Of a stretch of 33,876 bases of DNA, positions 206 to 6,364 are shown piece by piece. Each line of letters starts with the position of its first letter. The stretch's first letter is position 1. The position numbers and the translations under genes are program-made. Below the pieces are notes generated by a model, which saw only the letters and a list, made by a program, of their open reading frames with translations, was not told the origin of the DNA and searched no databases. The DNA comes from Massilimicrobiota sp. An134 (GTDB lineage Bacteria > Bacillota_I > Bacilli_A > Erysipelotrichales > Coprobacillaceae), in NCBI RefSeq assembly GCF_002160815.1, contig NZ_NFLH01000027.1, forward strand, positions 1-33,876, in the 5' to 3' direction.

Positions 206-1387
206 ATGAATTTTGTATATATATCACCATCCTTTCCAAAAAATTTTTATCAATTTTGTAACCGTTTAAAAAATAATGGAGTCACAGTTTTAGCAATTGC
301 GGATACACCTTATGATAATTTAAGTGAAGAATTAAAGAATTCAATAGATGATTACTATCAAGTATATTCTATGGAAGACTATGATGAAATGGTAAAGGCG
401 ATGGGTTATTTTATTTTCCATTATGGACATATAGATTGGTTGGAATCTAATAATGAATATTGGCTTGAACAGGATGCCAAATTGCGTACGGATTTTAATA
501 TTACAACAGGTATTCATACAAACCATATTGAAGATATTAAATGTAAATCAAAGATGAAGAAGTTTTATGAAGAAGCAGGAGTCAAAACAGCACGTTATCA
601 TTTAGTCACTGATTTGGAATCAGGTTTAAAATTTGTTCATGATGTTGGCTATCCTGTTGTAGTCAAACCAGATAATGGGGTTGGGGCAGCAAAGACTTAT
701 AAAATTTCTAATCAGGAGGAGTTAGAACATTTTTATCAGGAAGAACATTTTACACAATATATAATGGAAGAATTTGTTAATGGATTAATTATTTCATATG
801 ATGGTATTGCTAATTTAAATAAAGAGATTTTATTTGAAACATCACATGTTTTTCCAAATCCCATTATGGATGTAGTGAATGATCAAAGTAGTATGTATTA
901 TTATTCTTTAAGAGAAATACCTTATGATTTGAAACAAGCTGGACAGGCATGTGTGAAAGCCTTTTATACAGCTGGAAGATGTTTCCATATGGAATTCTTT
1001 AGATTGTTAGAGGATAAACCTGGGTTAGGTCAAAAAGGAGAGATTGTTGGCTTAGAAGTTAATTTAAGAACACCAGGAGGTTATACTCCTGATATGATGA
1101 ATTATGCCAATAATATTGATGTTTACCAAATCTATGCAGATATGGTCACAAAAGGGTATAGTGACTATGATCATCAGCGTCCATATCATTGTGTGTATTG
1201 TGGAAGAAGAGATGGTATCTCATATTCTCATACACATGAAGACATTGTATCACGTTATCATTTTGATTTGGTTATGTGTGAAAGAATGCCAGATATTTTA
1301 AGTGGAGCTATGGGTAATTTTACATATACTGCTCGATTTGAGAATATGGAGCAAGTCAATGAATTCGTTGATTTTGTTTTAGGTTAG
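206..1387 (+). CDS. ATP-grasp ligase (first of two paralogues)
   Basis: A 393-residue protein with the ATP-grasp fold, the carboxylate-amine/thiol ligase superfamily that activates a carboxylate as acyl-phosphate and joins it to a nucleophile. The N-terminal 100 residues look like the pre-ATP-grasp Rossmann domain (FVYISPSFPKNFYQF). The nucleotide lysine and glycine loop are seen at 150-162 (YPVVVKPDNGVGA, K154), the hinge acidic pair at 188-189 (MEEF), and the magnesium residues at E263 (HMEFF) and E284/N286 (GLEVNLR), so the enzyme looks active. The GGGGG ribosome site 10 bases upstream supports this ATG. It is followed after 10 bases by an alpha/beta hydrolase and then a close paralogue, so the three probably make or modify one product. 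The substrate cannot be read from sequence; automatic names such as carbamoyl-phosphate synthase-like would be misleading. Confidence 0.85.
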   Translation: MNFVYISPSFPKNFYQFCNRLKNNGVTVLAIADTPYDNLSEELKNSIDDYYQVYSMEDYDEMVKAMGYFIFHYGHIDWLESNNEYWLEQDAKLRTDFNITTGIHTNHIEDIKCKSKMKKFYEEAGVKTARYHLVTDLESGLKFVHDVGYPVVVKPDNGVGAAKTYKISNQEELEHFYQEEHFTQYIMEEFVNGLIISYDGIANLNKEILFETSHVFPNPIMDVVNDQSSMYYYSLREIPYDLKQAGQACVKAFYTAGRCFHMEFFRLLEDKPGLGQKGEIVGLEVNLRTPGGYTPDMMNYANNIDVYQIYADMVTKGYSDYDHQRPYHCVYCGRRDGISYSHTHEDIVSRYHFDLVMCERMPDILSGAMGNFTYTARFENMEQVNEFVDFVLG

Positions 1388-1397
1388 GGGTGAGAAT

Positions 1398-2153
1398 ATG
1401 AAGACAGAATGGTTTAAGGAATATAGCGAATGTTTATTACGTGATATGGAATTTAAGGTTTATGGTCATTCAGGAACACCAATTTTGGTTTTTCCTGCAC
1501 AAAATGGAAGATTCTTTGACTTTGAAAATTTTGGTATGGTGCATACAGTAGAGCACCTGATTGATGCAGGACGAATTCAGCTATTTTGTTGTGATAGCAT
1601 TGATCAAGAATCTTGGTCAGCTGAAGGGATGGATAATGGACATAGAACATATATGATGGAACAGTGGTTCTATTATATCGTTAATGAATTGGTTCCAAGA
1701 ATTTTAGAAATTAATTCTTATGGTCGTGATGGTCAGTATGCAGATGGCATTTATACAACAGGTTGTTCAATGGGGGCAACTCATGCAGTGAATTTCATGT
1801 TCAGAAGACCGGATATTTTTAAAGGTACCATTGCTTTGAGTGGATATTATGATAGTGATTTGTTTTTTGGAGATTATCATGATGATATTCTTTATCGCAA
1901 TTCACCAATTCAATATCTTCATGGTATGAGTTATGACCATCCTTATGTTGAGATGTATCGTCATTGTCGTATTGTTTTATGTTGTGGGCAAGGAGCATGG
2001 GAAGATGATATGATTAGAAGTACATCGCGTATGAAAGAACTTTTAGAATATAAAGATATTCCAGCATGGATTGATTTTTGGGGTCACGATGTGAATCATG
2101 ATTGGGATTGGTGGCAAGTTCAATTCCCATATTTTGTAGAAAGGGTTATATAA
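1398..2153 (+). CDS. Esterase-family alpha/beta hydrolase (COG4947-like)
   Basis: A 251-residue cytoplasmic protein (no signal peptide) of the esterase D-like alpha/beta hydrolase group. The nucleophile elbow is GCSMG with S124; likely acid and base residues are E202/D203 (GAWEDD) and H230 or H234 (WGHDVNHDWDWW). Such enzymes cleave or transfer acyl esters or peptides. The ribosome site AGGGGTGAG lies just inside the end of the upstream ATP-grasp gene, and the downstream paralogue starts two bases after this stop, so the three genes form one translational unit. The placement between two ligases suggests editing, release or acyl transfer of the ligase product; that role is inference. Confidence 0.8.
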   Translation: MKTEWFKEYSECLLRDMEFKVYGHSGTPILVFPAQNGRFFDFENFGMVHTVEHLIDAGRIQLFCCDSIDQESWSAEGMDNGHRTYMMEQWFYYIVNELVPRILEINSYGRDGQYADGIYTTGCSMGATHAVNFMFRRPDIFKGTIALSGYYDSDLFFGDYHDDILYRNSPIQYLHGMSYDHPYVEMYRHCRIVLCCGQGAWEDDMIRSTSRMKELLEYKDIPAWIDFWGHDVNHDWDWWQVQFPYFVERVI

Positions 2154-2155
2154 TA

Positions 2156-3364
2156 ATGAATGTTATCTTTATATCACCACATTTTCCAGATTATTTTTAC
2201 AATTTCTGTGACCGATTAAAAGTCAGAGGAGTTCGTGTTTTGGGAATCGGTGATGCGAATTATGAAAACTTGCCATATCATACAAAACTTGCCTTAACAG
2301 AATATTATCGTGTAGATGATTTAGAAAATTATGAAAGTGTATATAGAGCCTGTGCTTATTTTACATGGCATTATGGAAAAATTGATTGGATAGAATCTCA
2401 AAATGAATATTGGTTAGAATTGGAAGCAACATTAAGAAATGAATTTAATGTCACAACAGGAACCAAAATACAAAATCTATCACCAATGAAATACAAATCA
2501 AAAATGAAAGAAGTCTATCAAAAGATTGGGATACCAACTGCCAGATATCGAAAAGTTGATGATTACCTTGCGACAAAAGCATTTGCGAACAAGGTAGGAT
2601 ATCCAGTTATTGTTAAACCTGATAATGGTGTGGGTGCTAGTTCAACATATAAATTGAAAAATGATGATGAATTAGATTATTTCTTTGCGACAAAGCCATC
2701 TTATATTCAATTTATTATTGAGGAACTTGTTCCTGGTCATGTTGAAACATTTGATGGAATTACCGATAAAGATAAAAATATTTTGATTTGTTCATCACAT
2801 GTCATGTTGAATTCTATAATGGATAATGTAAATGAATTAAGTGATACTGCTTTTTACTCACAACCAGTTGAAGGATTGGATTTATATGAAATCGGAAAAA
2901 AGGTTGTAGAAGCTTTTGATACAAGAAGTCGTTTTTATCATTTTGAATTCTTTAGATTAGATGAAGATAAAGAAGGATTAGGAAGAAAAGGAGATATTGT
3001 TGGATTAGAAGTTAACATGAGAGCACCTGGTGCTTATATGCCTGATATGATTGATTTTGCATATAATGTCGATGTTTATACAATATGGGCTGATATGATT
3101 AAATATAATCAGTGTTTCTATGATATTCATCGTGAATATTGGGTAGCATATACAGGTCGTAGAGAAGGAATATGGTATATGCATAACTATGATCAGATTA
3201 GAGAAACTTATGGACAGAATATAGCCTTAGAAACAGATGTTCCAGAATCATTAAGTGGAGCAATGGGTAATCATGTCTTTATTGTGAAATCTCAATCAAA
3301 AGAAGAACTCTTTGAAATGATTCGTTATATTTTAAAAAGAGAAGATGGAACAGATTGGTTTTAA
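2156..3364 (+). CDS. ATP-grasp ligase (second paralogue)
   Basis: A 402-residue protein clearly homologous over its whole length to the first gene of the cassette (MNVIFISPHF versus MNFVYISPSF; the KPDNGVGA loop at K154 in both). The metal-binding residues E264 (HFEFF) and E285/N287 (GLEVNMR) are intact. I chose the ATG at 2156: the open frame extends upstream to 2102, but those codons lie inside the hydrolase gene, the homology begins at 2156, and AGAAAGGG sits just before it. Two intact ligases point to two successive couplings or a heteromer rather than a decayed duplicate. Followed by a terminator, so the cassette has three genes. Confidence 0.85.
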   Translation: MNVIFISPHFPDYFYNFCDRLKVRGVRVLGIGDANYENLPYHTKLALTEYYRVDDLENYESVYRACAYFTWHYGKIDWIESQNEYWLELEATLRNEFNVTTGTKIQNLSPMKYKSKMKEVYQKIGIPTARYRKVDDYLATKAFANKVGYPVIVKPDNGVGASSTYKLKNDDELDYFFATKPSYIQFIIEELVPGHVETFDGITDKDKNILICSSHVMLNSIMDNVNELSDTAFYSQPVEGLDLYEIGKKVVEAFDTRSRFYHFEFFRLDEDKEGLGRKGDIVGLEVNMRAPGAYMPDMIDFAYNVDVYTIWADMIKYNQCFYDIHREYWVAYTGRREGIWYMHNYDQIRETYGQNIALETDVPESLSGAMGNHVFIVKSQSKEELFEMIRYILKREDGTDWF

Positions 3365-3463: not shown

Positions 3464-3472
3464 TGTTATAAT
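3464..3472 (+). promoter_or_regulatory. Extended -10 promoter of the corA transcript
   Basis: TGTTATAAT is a perfect extended -10; no good -35 is visible. The start would lie near 3479, giving a leader of about 120 bases before corA that contains a short reading frame and a hairpin. Confidence 0.65.
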
Positions 3473-3499
3473 GGCAAAGGAAAGAAAGAAGGTGTTATT

Positions 3500-3583
3500 A
3501 TGTCTCCGGAGCCGGATGAAGATACGAAATTAACAATAAAACAAAGCATAACAGGAGACATAATTGATATTCTCCTGTTATAG
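3500..3583 (+). CDS. Putative 27-aa leader peptide upstream of corA
   Basis: ATG at 3500 with a good ribosome site (AGAAGG, 7-8 bases upstream) opens a 27-codon frame beginning MSPEPDEDTK and ending IIDILLL at a TAG 15 bases before corA. Residues 2-9 hold two prolines and five acidic residues. Such Pro/Asp/Glu-rich N-termini are known (MgtL, MEPDP, in Escherichia/Salmonella) to destabilise the translating ribosome at low magnesium and so switch on the mgtA transporter. Both proline codons are CCG, which stands out against the CCA/CCT-rich usage of neighbouring genes. The last codons lie in the hairpin 3548-3581. Translation and a regulatory role are inference; there is no sequence homology to MgtL beyond composition. 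Confidence 0.5.
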   Translation: MSPEPDEDTKLTIKQSITGDIIDILLL

Positions 3584-3592
3584 AAGAGGAGG
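3548..3592 (+). promoter_or_regulatory. Hairpin and competing anti-SD in the corA leader
   Basis: A perfect 11-bp stem joins ATAACAGGAGA (3548-3558) and TCTCCTGTTAT (3571-3581). It spans the last codons and stop of the leader frame. There is no T run, so it is not a terminator. The right arm's CTCCT (3572-3576) can alternatively pair with AGGAG (3587-3591) of the corA ribosome site GAGGAGG. A second anti-SD copy TCTCC sits at 3503-3507, in the first codons of the leader frame. The arrangement suits a translational switch whose state depends on where the leader ribosome is. Confidence 0.5.
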
Positions 3593-3598
3593 ATAAAA

Positions 3599-4546
3599 AT
3601 GATCGAATTTTACAAAACTTTTGGAACAGAAACAAAAAAAGTCGAAACATTAGAAACAGGATGCTGGATTAATGTTGTTTCACCAACAGAAGAAGAAAAA
3701 CAATTTTTAATTAATGATTTGGGAATTGTTCCTGAATTTGTGCAAGCTTCATTAGATGAAGAAGAAAGTTCACATATTGATTTTGATGATGATTACAATC
3801 AGACATTAGTCATTGTCGATTATCCAAGTGCAGAAGAAACTGAAGGAAAATACGATAAAATGACTCTACAATATACAACATTACCATTAGGTATTGTTTT
3901 AATGAAAGGATATATTATTACAATTTCATTATATGAGAATTTAAATATTGAAGATATGGCAACAGGTAAAGTCAAGGGTATTCATACAGAAATGAAGACG
4001 AGATTTTTATTAAAGCTTCTTTTAAGAATTTCTCAAAGATATTTGATTTATTTACGTCAAATTGATCGATTATCATCTTTGACAGAACAAAAACTTCATA
4101 AATCAATGCAAAATAAAGAACTTATTCAAATGCTTGGATTAGAAAAATCTTTAGTTTATTTTTCAACATCATTAAAAACTGATGAAATTACTTTGAATAA
4201 GATCATGCGTGGAAAATCTATTAAACTTTATGAAGATGATCAGGATTTATTAGAAGATGTTTTAGTAGAAATTAATCAGGCCATTGAAATGTGTAGTATT
4301 TATTCAAATATCTTATCTGGAACAATGGATGCTTATGCTTCTGTTATTTCAAATAACTTAAATATTGTTATGAAGGTTTTAACAGTTATCACTATTGTGA
4401 TGTCAATACCAAATATTATCTTTAGTTTTTATGGAATGAATGTTTCAGGTTTACCAGGACCAGTATGGTGGGTCCCAACTTTGATTGCCGTTATTGCATG
4501 TGTTATTGCTTCGTTTATATTTATGAAAAAAGATATGTTTCATTAA
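3599..4546 (+). CDS. corA: CorA-family magnesium channel
   Basis: A 315-residue membrane protein of the CorA family, a homopentameric Mg2+ (sometimes Co2+) channel. It has the family layout: a long acidic, helical cytoplasmic N-terminal part (1-255) and two C-terminal membrane helices (about 257-278 and 291-309). The signature YGMN at 278-281 ends the first helix at the outer mouth of the pore and a short basic tail (MKKDMFH) closes the protein. The ribosome site GAGGAGG is 6 bases upstream. It is transcribed alone from the extended -10 at 3464 and ends in its own terminator. The unusual leader (short acidic frame plus hairpin) suggests control by magnesium at translation; it is too short for an M-box riboswitch. 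Confidence 0.9.
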   Translation: MIEFYKTFGTETKKVETLETGCWINVVSPTEEEKQFLINDLGIVPEFVQASLDEEESSHIDFDDDYNQTLVIVDYPSAEETEGKYDKMTLQYTTLPLGIVLMKGYIITISLYENLNIEDMATGKVKGIHTEMKTRFLLKLLLRISQRYLIYLRQIDRLSSLTEQKLHKSMQNKELIQMLGLEKSLVYFSTSLKTDEITLNKIMRGKSIKLYEDDQDLLEDVLVEINQAIEMCSIYSNILSGTMDAYASVISNNLNIVMKVLTVITIVMSIPNIIFSFYGMNVSGLPGPVWWVPTLIAVIACVIASFIFMKKDMFH

Positions 4547-4573
4547 GTACATGGAACATATCTTTCTTTTTTT
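4530..4573 (+). terminator. Terminator of corA
   Basis: Stem AAGATATGTTT (4530-4540) with GAACATATCTT (4554-4564), then a T-rich tail. The left arm overlaps the last codons of corA. Confidence 0.8.
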
Positions 4574-6112: not shown

Positions 6113-6364
6113 ATGTTAGAATATAAATTTGATACACAGTTATTAATTGAAGGAAAAAACTTAAATGAAGACGAAATTAATGATTATATTACAGAACATT
6201 TTCAGGGAGATTGTTTATTAGCTGTTGGTGATGATGAACTCATTAAAATTCATTTTCATACCAATGAACCATGGCTTGTTTTACAATATGGGGCAACACT
6301 TGGAGAAATCTATGATATTGTTGTTGAAAATATGGAAAGACAGGCACATGGGCTAAAAGGATAG
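6113..6364 (+). CDS. Stand-alone FakA middle-domain-like protein
   Basis: An 83-residue protein resembling only the middle segment of the fatty-acid kinase subunit FakA (YloV/DAK family). It has the GDCLLAVGDDELIKIHFHTNEP block and the closing IVVENMERQ block of that segment. In FakA this segment binds zinc through one Cys and two His. Here the His pair is kept (H47 and H49 in HFHT) while the position of the YCTEF cysteine is Asp7 (FDTQLLI). The DhaL kinase domain and the C-terminal domain are absent. It starts two bases after the GH1 stop with AAGGAG upstream, so it is translated with that operon. A FakB-like DegV protein is encoded elsewhere in the window. The role is unknown; an accessory or decoy subunit for FakA is one possibility. 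Confidence 0.65.
   Translation: MLEYKFDTQLLIEGKNLNEDEINDYITEHFQGDCLLAVGDDELIKIHFHTNEPWLVLQYGATLGEIYDIVVENMERQAHGLKG

Follow-up and report, generated by a model that had tools for sequence, protein, structure and literature searches.

The corA gene of Massilimicrobiota sp. An134 is preceded by a leader that is likely to be a translational attenuator run by a destabilizing leader peptide, in which low Mg2+ would lead to more CorA. The leader lies in a window of 33,876 nucleotides, the window being the whole stretch of DNA that was analysed (contig NZ_NFLH01000027.1 of assembly GCF_002160815.1). Its short upstream open reading frame (uORF) begins MSPEPDED, with both prolines encoded by CCG, and four segments of its RNA engage in competing pairings around the Shine-Dalgarno sequence (SD) of corA. 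Sensing of Mg2+ by a nascent chain that destabilizes the ribosome has been worked out in enterobacteria, with MgtL and MgtQ; the Firmicutes are known mainly for the M-box. If the reading proposed here is true, the fragility of the ribosome has been put to convergent use as a Mg2+ gauge outside the proteobacteria. The full-text literature yielded no description of such a corA leader in Firmicutes; an unnamed listing is possible, for example among candidate RNAs of the human microbiome (PMC8040213).

Organization of the corA leader

The features of the locus are collected in Table 1. Leader and corA are preceded by an ATP-grasp gene that ends at 3364, and the terminator-like hairpin at the end of corA suggests that the two form one transcription unit. 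In the comparison of corA upstream regions, TATAAT is found at the equivalent place in most relatives; the -10 element of the window is absent from the list given by a scan for -35/-10 consensus sequences. Because the scan for intrinsic terminators lists none in the leader, the ordinary form of transcription attenuation is unlikely. A preliminary description of this DNA had proposed a corA leader of about 120 bases, a 27-codon frame with its own SD, an 11-bp hairpin built from the last codons of that frame (3548-3558/3571-3581), a CTCCT motif within it (3572-3576) and the SD of corA, and direct reading bears out each of them; it had counted five acidic residues among the first nine of the peptide, where the sequence gives four.

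Table 1. Features of the corA leader and transcription unit in the window
Feature	Position	Strand	Basis or remark
corA leader	3480-3598	+	5' of corA; Massilimicrobiota-type genome, Erysipelotrichales
Extended -10 element TGTTATAAT	3464-3472	+	sequence; predicted transcript start near 3479
uORF Shine-Dalgarno AAGGTG	3489-3494	+	sequence; GAAAGAAGGTG block kept in relatives
Leader uORF MSPEPDEDTKLTIKQSITGDIIDILLL, 27 codons	3500-3583	+	ATG 3500, stop TAG 3581-3583
Segment 1 ATTATGTCTCC	3497-3507	+	uORF spacer, start codon, codons 2-3; partner of segment 2
Segment 2 ATAACAGGAGACATAAT	3548-3564	+	left arm of ON hairpin 3548-3558; segment 1 partner 3554-3564
Segment 3 TATTCTCCTGTTAT	3568-3581	+	right arm of ON hairpin 3571-3581; anti-SD 3568-3576
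Segment 4 AGGAGGATA	3587-3595	+	corA SD and 3' flank; pairs with segment 3 when OFF (MFE)
corA Shine-Dalgarno AGGAGG	3587-3592	+	sequence
corA, 315 aa, CorA-family Mg2+ transporter, regulated gene	3599-4546	+	Pfam PF01544, E = 4e-47, 161 bits; orthologs in relatives
Intrinsic-terminator-like hairpin overlapping corA 3' end	4529-4565	+	scan: 1 found vs 0.2 expected

Elsewhere in the window, the region just before the corA unit (206-3364) encodes a putative esterase (1398-2153) with a paralogous ATP-grasp protein on either side. An open reading frame of 83 residues (6113-6364) corresponds to a FakA-like fatty acid kinase reduced to its middle domain; its neighbours are a glycoside hydrolase 1 gene on one side and a membrane-transport gene on the other. 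Positions 1-80 hold the end of a 5S rRNA gene cut off by the edge of the contig.

The leader in related genomes

The search for CorA orthologs gave Massilimicrobiota as the nearest named genomes. In relatives the orthologs are 60-97% identical, the named ones belonging to Thomasclavelia, Longicatena, Traorella, Amedibacillus, Merdibacter, Faecalicoccus, Faecalitalea and Holdemanella. A GAAAG(A/T)AGGTG block followed by the ATG of a uORF stands 5' of nearly every corA ortholog of the Erysipelotrichales, the uORF starting with MSPEPE, MSPEPD, MSPDPS, MTPEPEP, MAPEPEA, MSPVPER, MSPDPL, MSSDP or MSLD.D. A strict pattern of SD and uORF matched in 29 of 148 relatives, 26 times at corA with three stray matches, and the reversed pattern used as a control matched nowhere. 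With a covariance model, 42 of 315 genomes of the order have a strong match (E <= 3.4e-10), one per genome, and every one of the 30 strong loci inspected precedes corA; when the model was run against 392 genomes of the phylum, there were no strong matches outside the order. The recurrence of the leader is real, far above chance. An alignment of relatives had been suggested in the preliminary description as the way to check it, and frame, Pro/acidic N-terminus and competing pairings all turn out to be conserved.

Weaker matches of the model (L171-L175) were set aside: the DNA fetched for them is without the CorA motif (YGMN), and the stretches viewed are unrelated sequence. A uORF of the MSPEP type was not seen upstream of the corA genes of Collinsella, Catenibacillus/Scybalocola and Criibacterium. 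The most divergent Erysipelotrichales ortholog that was read (L031, in genome G108) has a uORF MKEDPYSHDFF in otherwise unrelated sequence, with a 1:2 plus 3:4 fold like that of the window. A different corA leader is present at L189 (genome G113, CorA about 40% identical), with the uORF MDSGPYHSSLKEHN, the start of which can pair with a downstream TCCATAC, and with the SD of corA under a hairpin; this is perhaps another version of the switch.

Selection on the leader peptide

Changes at the three codon positions were counted by parsimony on the CorA tree for 39 leaders. They amount to 3, 1 and 10 at positions 1, 2 and 3 of codon 3, to 2, 4 and 8 in codon 4 and to 2, 0 and 10 in codon 5, an asymmetry similar to that of CorA itself (3.1, 1.3 and 10.5 on average per site), which has become flat by codon 9. 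RNA structure does not account for it, given that the pairing core does not include codons 4-6. Residue 3 is Pro in 34 of the 39 leaders, residue 4 is Asp or Glu in 35 and residue 5 is Pro in 37; the exact P3-[D/E]4-P5 motif is present in 31, and all 39 have an acidic residue somewhere between positions 2 and 7. The exceptions include MSLDADG and MSLDSDG, without the pair of prolines, and MSPVPER and MSPLPED, without the acidic residue 4. This codon-level comparison gives good support to the view that residues 3-5 are selected as peptide, their codons varying synonymously at the third base while later residues drift.

Past codon 6 the residues vary freely, but the frame is constrained. Segment 2 falls in any of the three frames, yet the uORF stays open up to the hairpin: it extends to 9 nt or less from segment 2 in 25 of 26 non-redundant leaders and to within 10 nt in all 26, compared with 9 of 26 within 9 nt for each of the other frames and a mean of 11.8 (maximum 20) in shuffles. 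Its stop is always found between -10 and +32 nt relative to the left arm of the hairpin in these 26 leaders. The uORF seems to be needed so that ribosomes terminate on segment 2, and its translation is well supported by comparison.

Competing pairings of the leader RNA

Helix 1:2 joins ATTATGTCTCC (3497-3507) to GGAGACATAAT (3554-3564) by 11 perfect pairs and is present in the MFE structure. The preliminary description had noted a second TCTCC copy at the start of the uORF. The copy is indeed there, but it is really the core of a fourth pairing segment, and the helix 1:2 had been missed. In the form met in several relatives, the left arm of the hairpin, CAGGAGACAT, is the reverse complement of the uORF start, ATGTCTCCTG. 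Compensating changes relate ATGTCTTCGG to CGAAGACAT, with Pro3 replaced by Ser, ATGTCTTTA to AAAGACAT, with Pro3 replaced by Leu, and GTATATGGCTCC to GGAGGTATATGC.

Among 26 non-redundant leaders, two-sided changes number 29 for helix 1:2 against 12.2 in shuffles, and 37 for helix 2:3 against 12.8 (0/500 in both cases). The duplex energies of 1:2, 2:3 and 3:4 are also better than those of all 20,000 re-dealings of partners among loci, a test for which segment 2 was set by hand in eight loci (L007, L021, L023 and five more), and in which the control pairings 1:4 and 1:3 give no signal. The 5-bp core of 3:4 can pair in 26 of 26 leaders; its covariation in a fixed register gives no signal in these leaders because the SD of corA is invariant, and the re-dealing of energies was used instead. 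From these comparisons helices 1:2 and 2:3 appear well supported, 3:4 is probably the repressing helix, and corA is probably controlled at the level of translation.

A proposed ribosome-driven switch and its alternatives

The MFE structure of the window leader (-25.3) is exactly 1:2 plus 3:4, the OFF form. Since 1:2 forms perfectly, the ribosome-free default would be OFF, with the start codon of the uORF hidden too. In folding of the window leader, the probability that the corA SD is open is 0.03 in free RNA; a ribosome on codons 1-6 raises it to 0.74, and one over segment 2 brings it to 0.00. A scan of ribosome positions in the 26 leaders gives an opening of about 0.35 with codons 1-6 in the P site and 0.24 with codon 7; beyond that it is about 0.10, with no second rise until close to the stop. 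Shuffling the middle of the leader makes the profile nearly flat. The positions at which a ribosome opens the SD coincide with the conserved Pro/acidic codons. These calculations agree with the logic of the preliminary description, in which an early ribosome frees the corA site and reading on hides it.

We therefore picture the following sequence of events, as a proposal. In free RNA, 1:2 would hide the start of the uORF and 3:4 the SD of corA, keeping the gene OFF. A ribosome lingering or lost within codons 1-7, with the chain MSP(D/E)P(E/D), would cover segment 1 and leave segment 2 free to pair with segment 3, so that the corA SD would open (ON). A ribosome moving past these codons would uncover segment 1 and enter segment 2, and 3:4 would re-form (OFF). 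Low Mg2+ would weaken ribosomes carrying early Pro/acidic chains, as with MgtL of E. coli, and a low intracellular Mg2+ level would in this way raise CorA synthesis. The comparison of sequences shows the uORF, its motif, the frame kept open to the hairpin and helices 1:2 and 2:3; repression by 3:4, control at the translational level, loss or pausing of the ribosome, and Mg2+ as the signal are the steps that we infer.

The same RNA switch might respond to a signal other than Mg2+, such as slow decoding of proline (charged tRNA-Pro, EF-P) or stress in early elongation, which CorA would follow. Two Pro codons are conserved, the switch requires only that a ribosome be positioned on codons 1-7, mgtP of Salmonella senses charged tRNA-Pro (summarized in PMC8092293), and MgtL is a target of the ABC-F protein EttA as well (PMC11282234). 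We nevertheless regard this as unlikely. Conservation extends to the acidic residue that separates the prolines (35/39), and the Oscillospiraceae set described below has a fixed D4 and P5 but frequently a residue other than Pro at position 3; one proline by itself is not known to stall ribosomes (PMC8092293). The regulated gene is always a Mg2+ transporter. Plain translational coupling, with uORF ribosomes melting 3:4 or reinitiating at corA and no sensing by the peptide, would account for the many uORFs that stop 11-15 nt before corA. It would also fit the position scan, in which late ribosomes (codons 21-24, near the stop) expose the corA SD, so that ribosomes idling at termination could raise corA. 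However, the distance between uORF stop and corA varies in Erysipelotrichales between 11 and 46 nt, some Ruminococcus-type uORFs extend into corA itself, the first five residues appear to be selected as peptide, and helix 1:2, which coupling does not require, covaries. Coupling as the whole explanation is accordingly quite improbable.

That the RNA senses metal directly, as a riboswitch in which the uORF is incidental, we would hardly expect. Metal riboswitches are common on such genes, to be sure, and the corA motif of gammaproteobacteria was initially put forward as a riboswitch of this kind (PMC6429828). Yet an Rfam search of the window and of the leader, even when permissive, returned only the 5S rRNA fragment at the edge of the window and chance matches; conservation falls on the SDs, on codons of the uORF and on the segments that pair, without any conserved unpaired core, and the uORF displays its codon-position signal. 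To return to the attenuator run by a Mg2+-sensitive leader peptide, segment 1 is free again after a ribosome has dropped off, so that the ON state must rely on kinetic trapping or on frequent re-initiation. The overall interpretation of the preliminary description, an MgtL-like sensor acting on corA, is partly supported by this body of evidence.

A second set of corA leaders

CorA of the Oscillospiraceae/Ruminococcus type is about 50-57% identical to that of the window. Here too uORFs precede corA (loci L204-L296), beginning MNPDP, MSPDP, MSTDP, MNADP or MGADP. In a strict scan, D-P stands exactly at residues 4-5 of a uORF behind an SD in 44 of 70 corA upstream regions, while D-P elsewhere in residues 2-10 gives at most one, the reverse complement none and shuffles at most one. 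Five more, cut off or with a weaker SD, were recognized by eye, and two more came from a later pattern search. The pattern of an SD followed by M-[N/S/K]-P-D-P matches in 20 of 198 genomes, and comparison of coordinates places all 20 matches about 75-185 nt upstream of corA. In 41 non-redundant leaders of this set the 1:2 and 3:4 energies beat all 20,000 re-dealings, which the control does not; both pairings covary, and the hairpin in the middle of the leader has a mean z of -2.7, which marks it as stable. The position scan follows the same trend more weakly, with an opening of about 0.32 at codons 1-5, 0.14 at codons 11-17 and 0.17 in free RNA.

These leaders are probably the larger part of the class. 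On balance we lean towards the view that corA of both Bacillota groups is under a widespread, undescribed class of Mg2+ sensor, combining an M-x-(P)-D/E-P peptide with a four-segment SD switch in which ribosomes fall off or pause at low Mg2+, convergent with MgtL in the position of the motif and with MgtQ in RNA logic, without overall sequence relation. Confirmation would mean that two or more bacterial phyla use the ribosome itself to gauge Mg2+, and do so with P-D-P residues at identical positions. The leaders also provide over 60 natural variants for mapping the early residues that weaken a Gram-positive ribosome.

Other magnesium uptake systems

The M-box (RF00380) is a metal-binding RNA without a uORF that controls Mg2+ transporters in Firmicutes. 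This is also the role proposed for the leader described here; RF00380 matches neither the window nor any other part of the Massilimicrobiota genome. That genome also has no MgtE and no MgtA-type ATPase above the family cut-off. It has one distant second CorA (L002), located behind an acyl-carrier-protein-like gene and without a uORF of the corA-leader type. Among relatives, the M-box is present in 19 of 148. If confirmed, the proposed sensor would explain how CorA is adjusted in many gut Firmicutes that lack the M-box. An M-box co-occurs with the leader in G108 and a few other leader-bearing genomes (G036, G094, G101).

Comparison with known systems

In the erm/cat-type attenuators of Gram-positive bacteria, a ribosome stalled by a drug early on a leader ORF frees the SD of a resistance gene. 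The corA leader resembles them in that an early-held ribosome would switch competing hairpins and free the target SD; it differs in its sensor, in its target and in its unrelated peptide. MgtL, in the leader of E. coli and Salmonella mgtA, works within a larger leader, and its output is Rho-dependent termination of transcription, whereas here the conserved helices point to the hiding of an SD. MgtL of E. coli K-12 begins MEPDPTPLP in the K-12 record. The likeness lies in P-D/E-P at residues 3-5 (MEPDP as against MSPEP/MSPDP) in the leader of a Mg2+ transporter; residue 2 is Glu in MgtL and Ser here, the rest of the peptide is unrelated, and the corA leader is without an Rfam match. Ribosome loss at low Mg2+ has been reported for the EPDP of MgtL, with a toeprint corresponding to Pro3 in the P site when EttA is present (PMC11282234).

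Closest in RNA logic is MgtQ-mgtB of Salmonella, where 1:2/3:4 alternates with 2:3 over the SD of mgtB and mutation has established the need for the acidic codons (PMC8092293). Both systems have a short uORF with early acidic codons, a Mg2+ transporter downstream, control at translation (probable for corA), and four segments that form either 1:2 plus 3:4, hiding the target SD, or 2:3. By contrast, MgtQ lies between mgtC and mgtB of gammaproteobacteria, has a P-type ATPase as its target and consists of 8 codons with D2, P4 and E5, while the present leaders lie 5' of corA in Bacillota, have 12-31 codons with P3-D/E4-P5, and include the start codon in segment 1. The corA leader combines an MgtL-like motif with an MgtQ-like switch, and by descent, as far as tested, it is a member of neither.

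CorL of E. coli and Salmonella is likewise a uORF in a corA leader, its translation being inversely related to corA expression (PMC11552253), but the E. coli peptide (LDTPSRYW...) has one Pro and the system is Rho-dependent. The 'corA motif' RNA is gammaproteobacterial (PMC6429828), and the Rfam scan of the present leader gave no match to such a family. In E. coli K-12, the ORF annotated ysgD 5' of corA (L203:219-275) has a TTG start and reads LDTPSRYWLTILSSRINS, in agreement with what is described for CorL.
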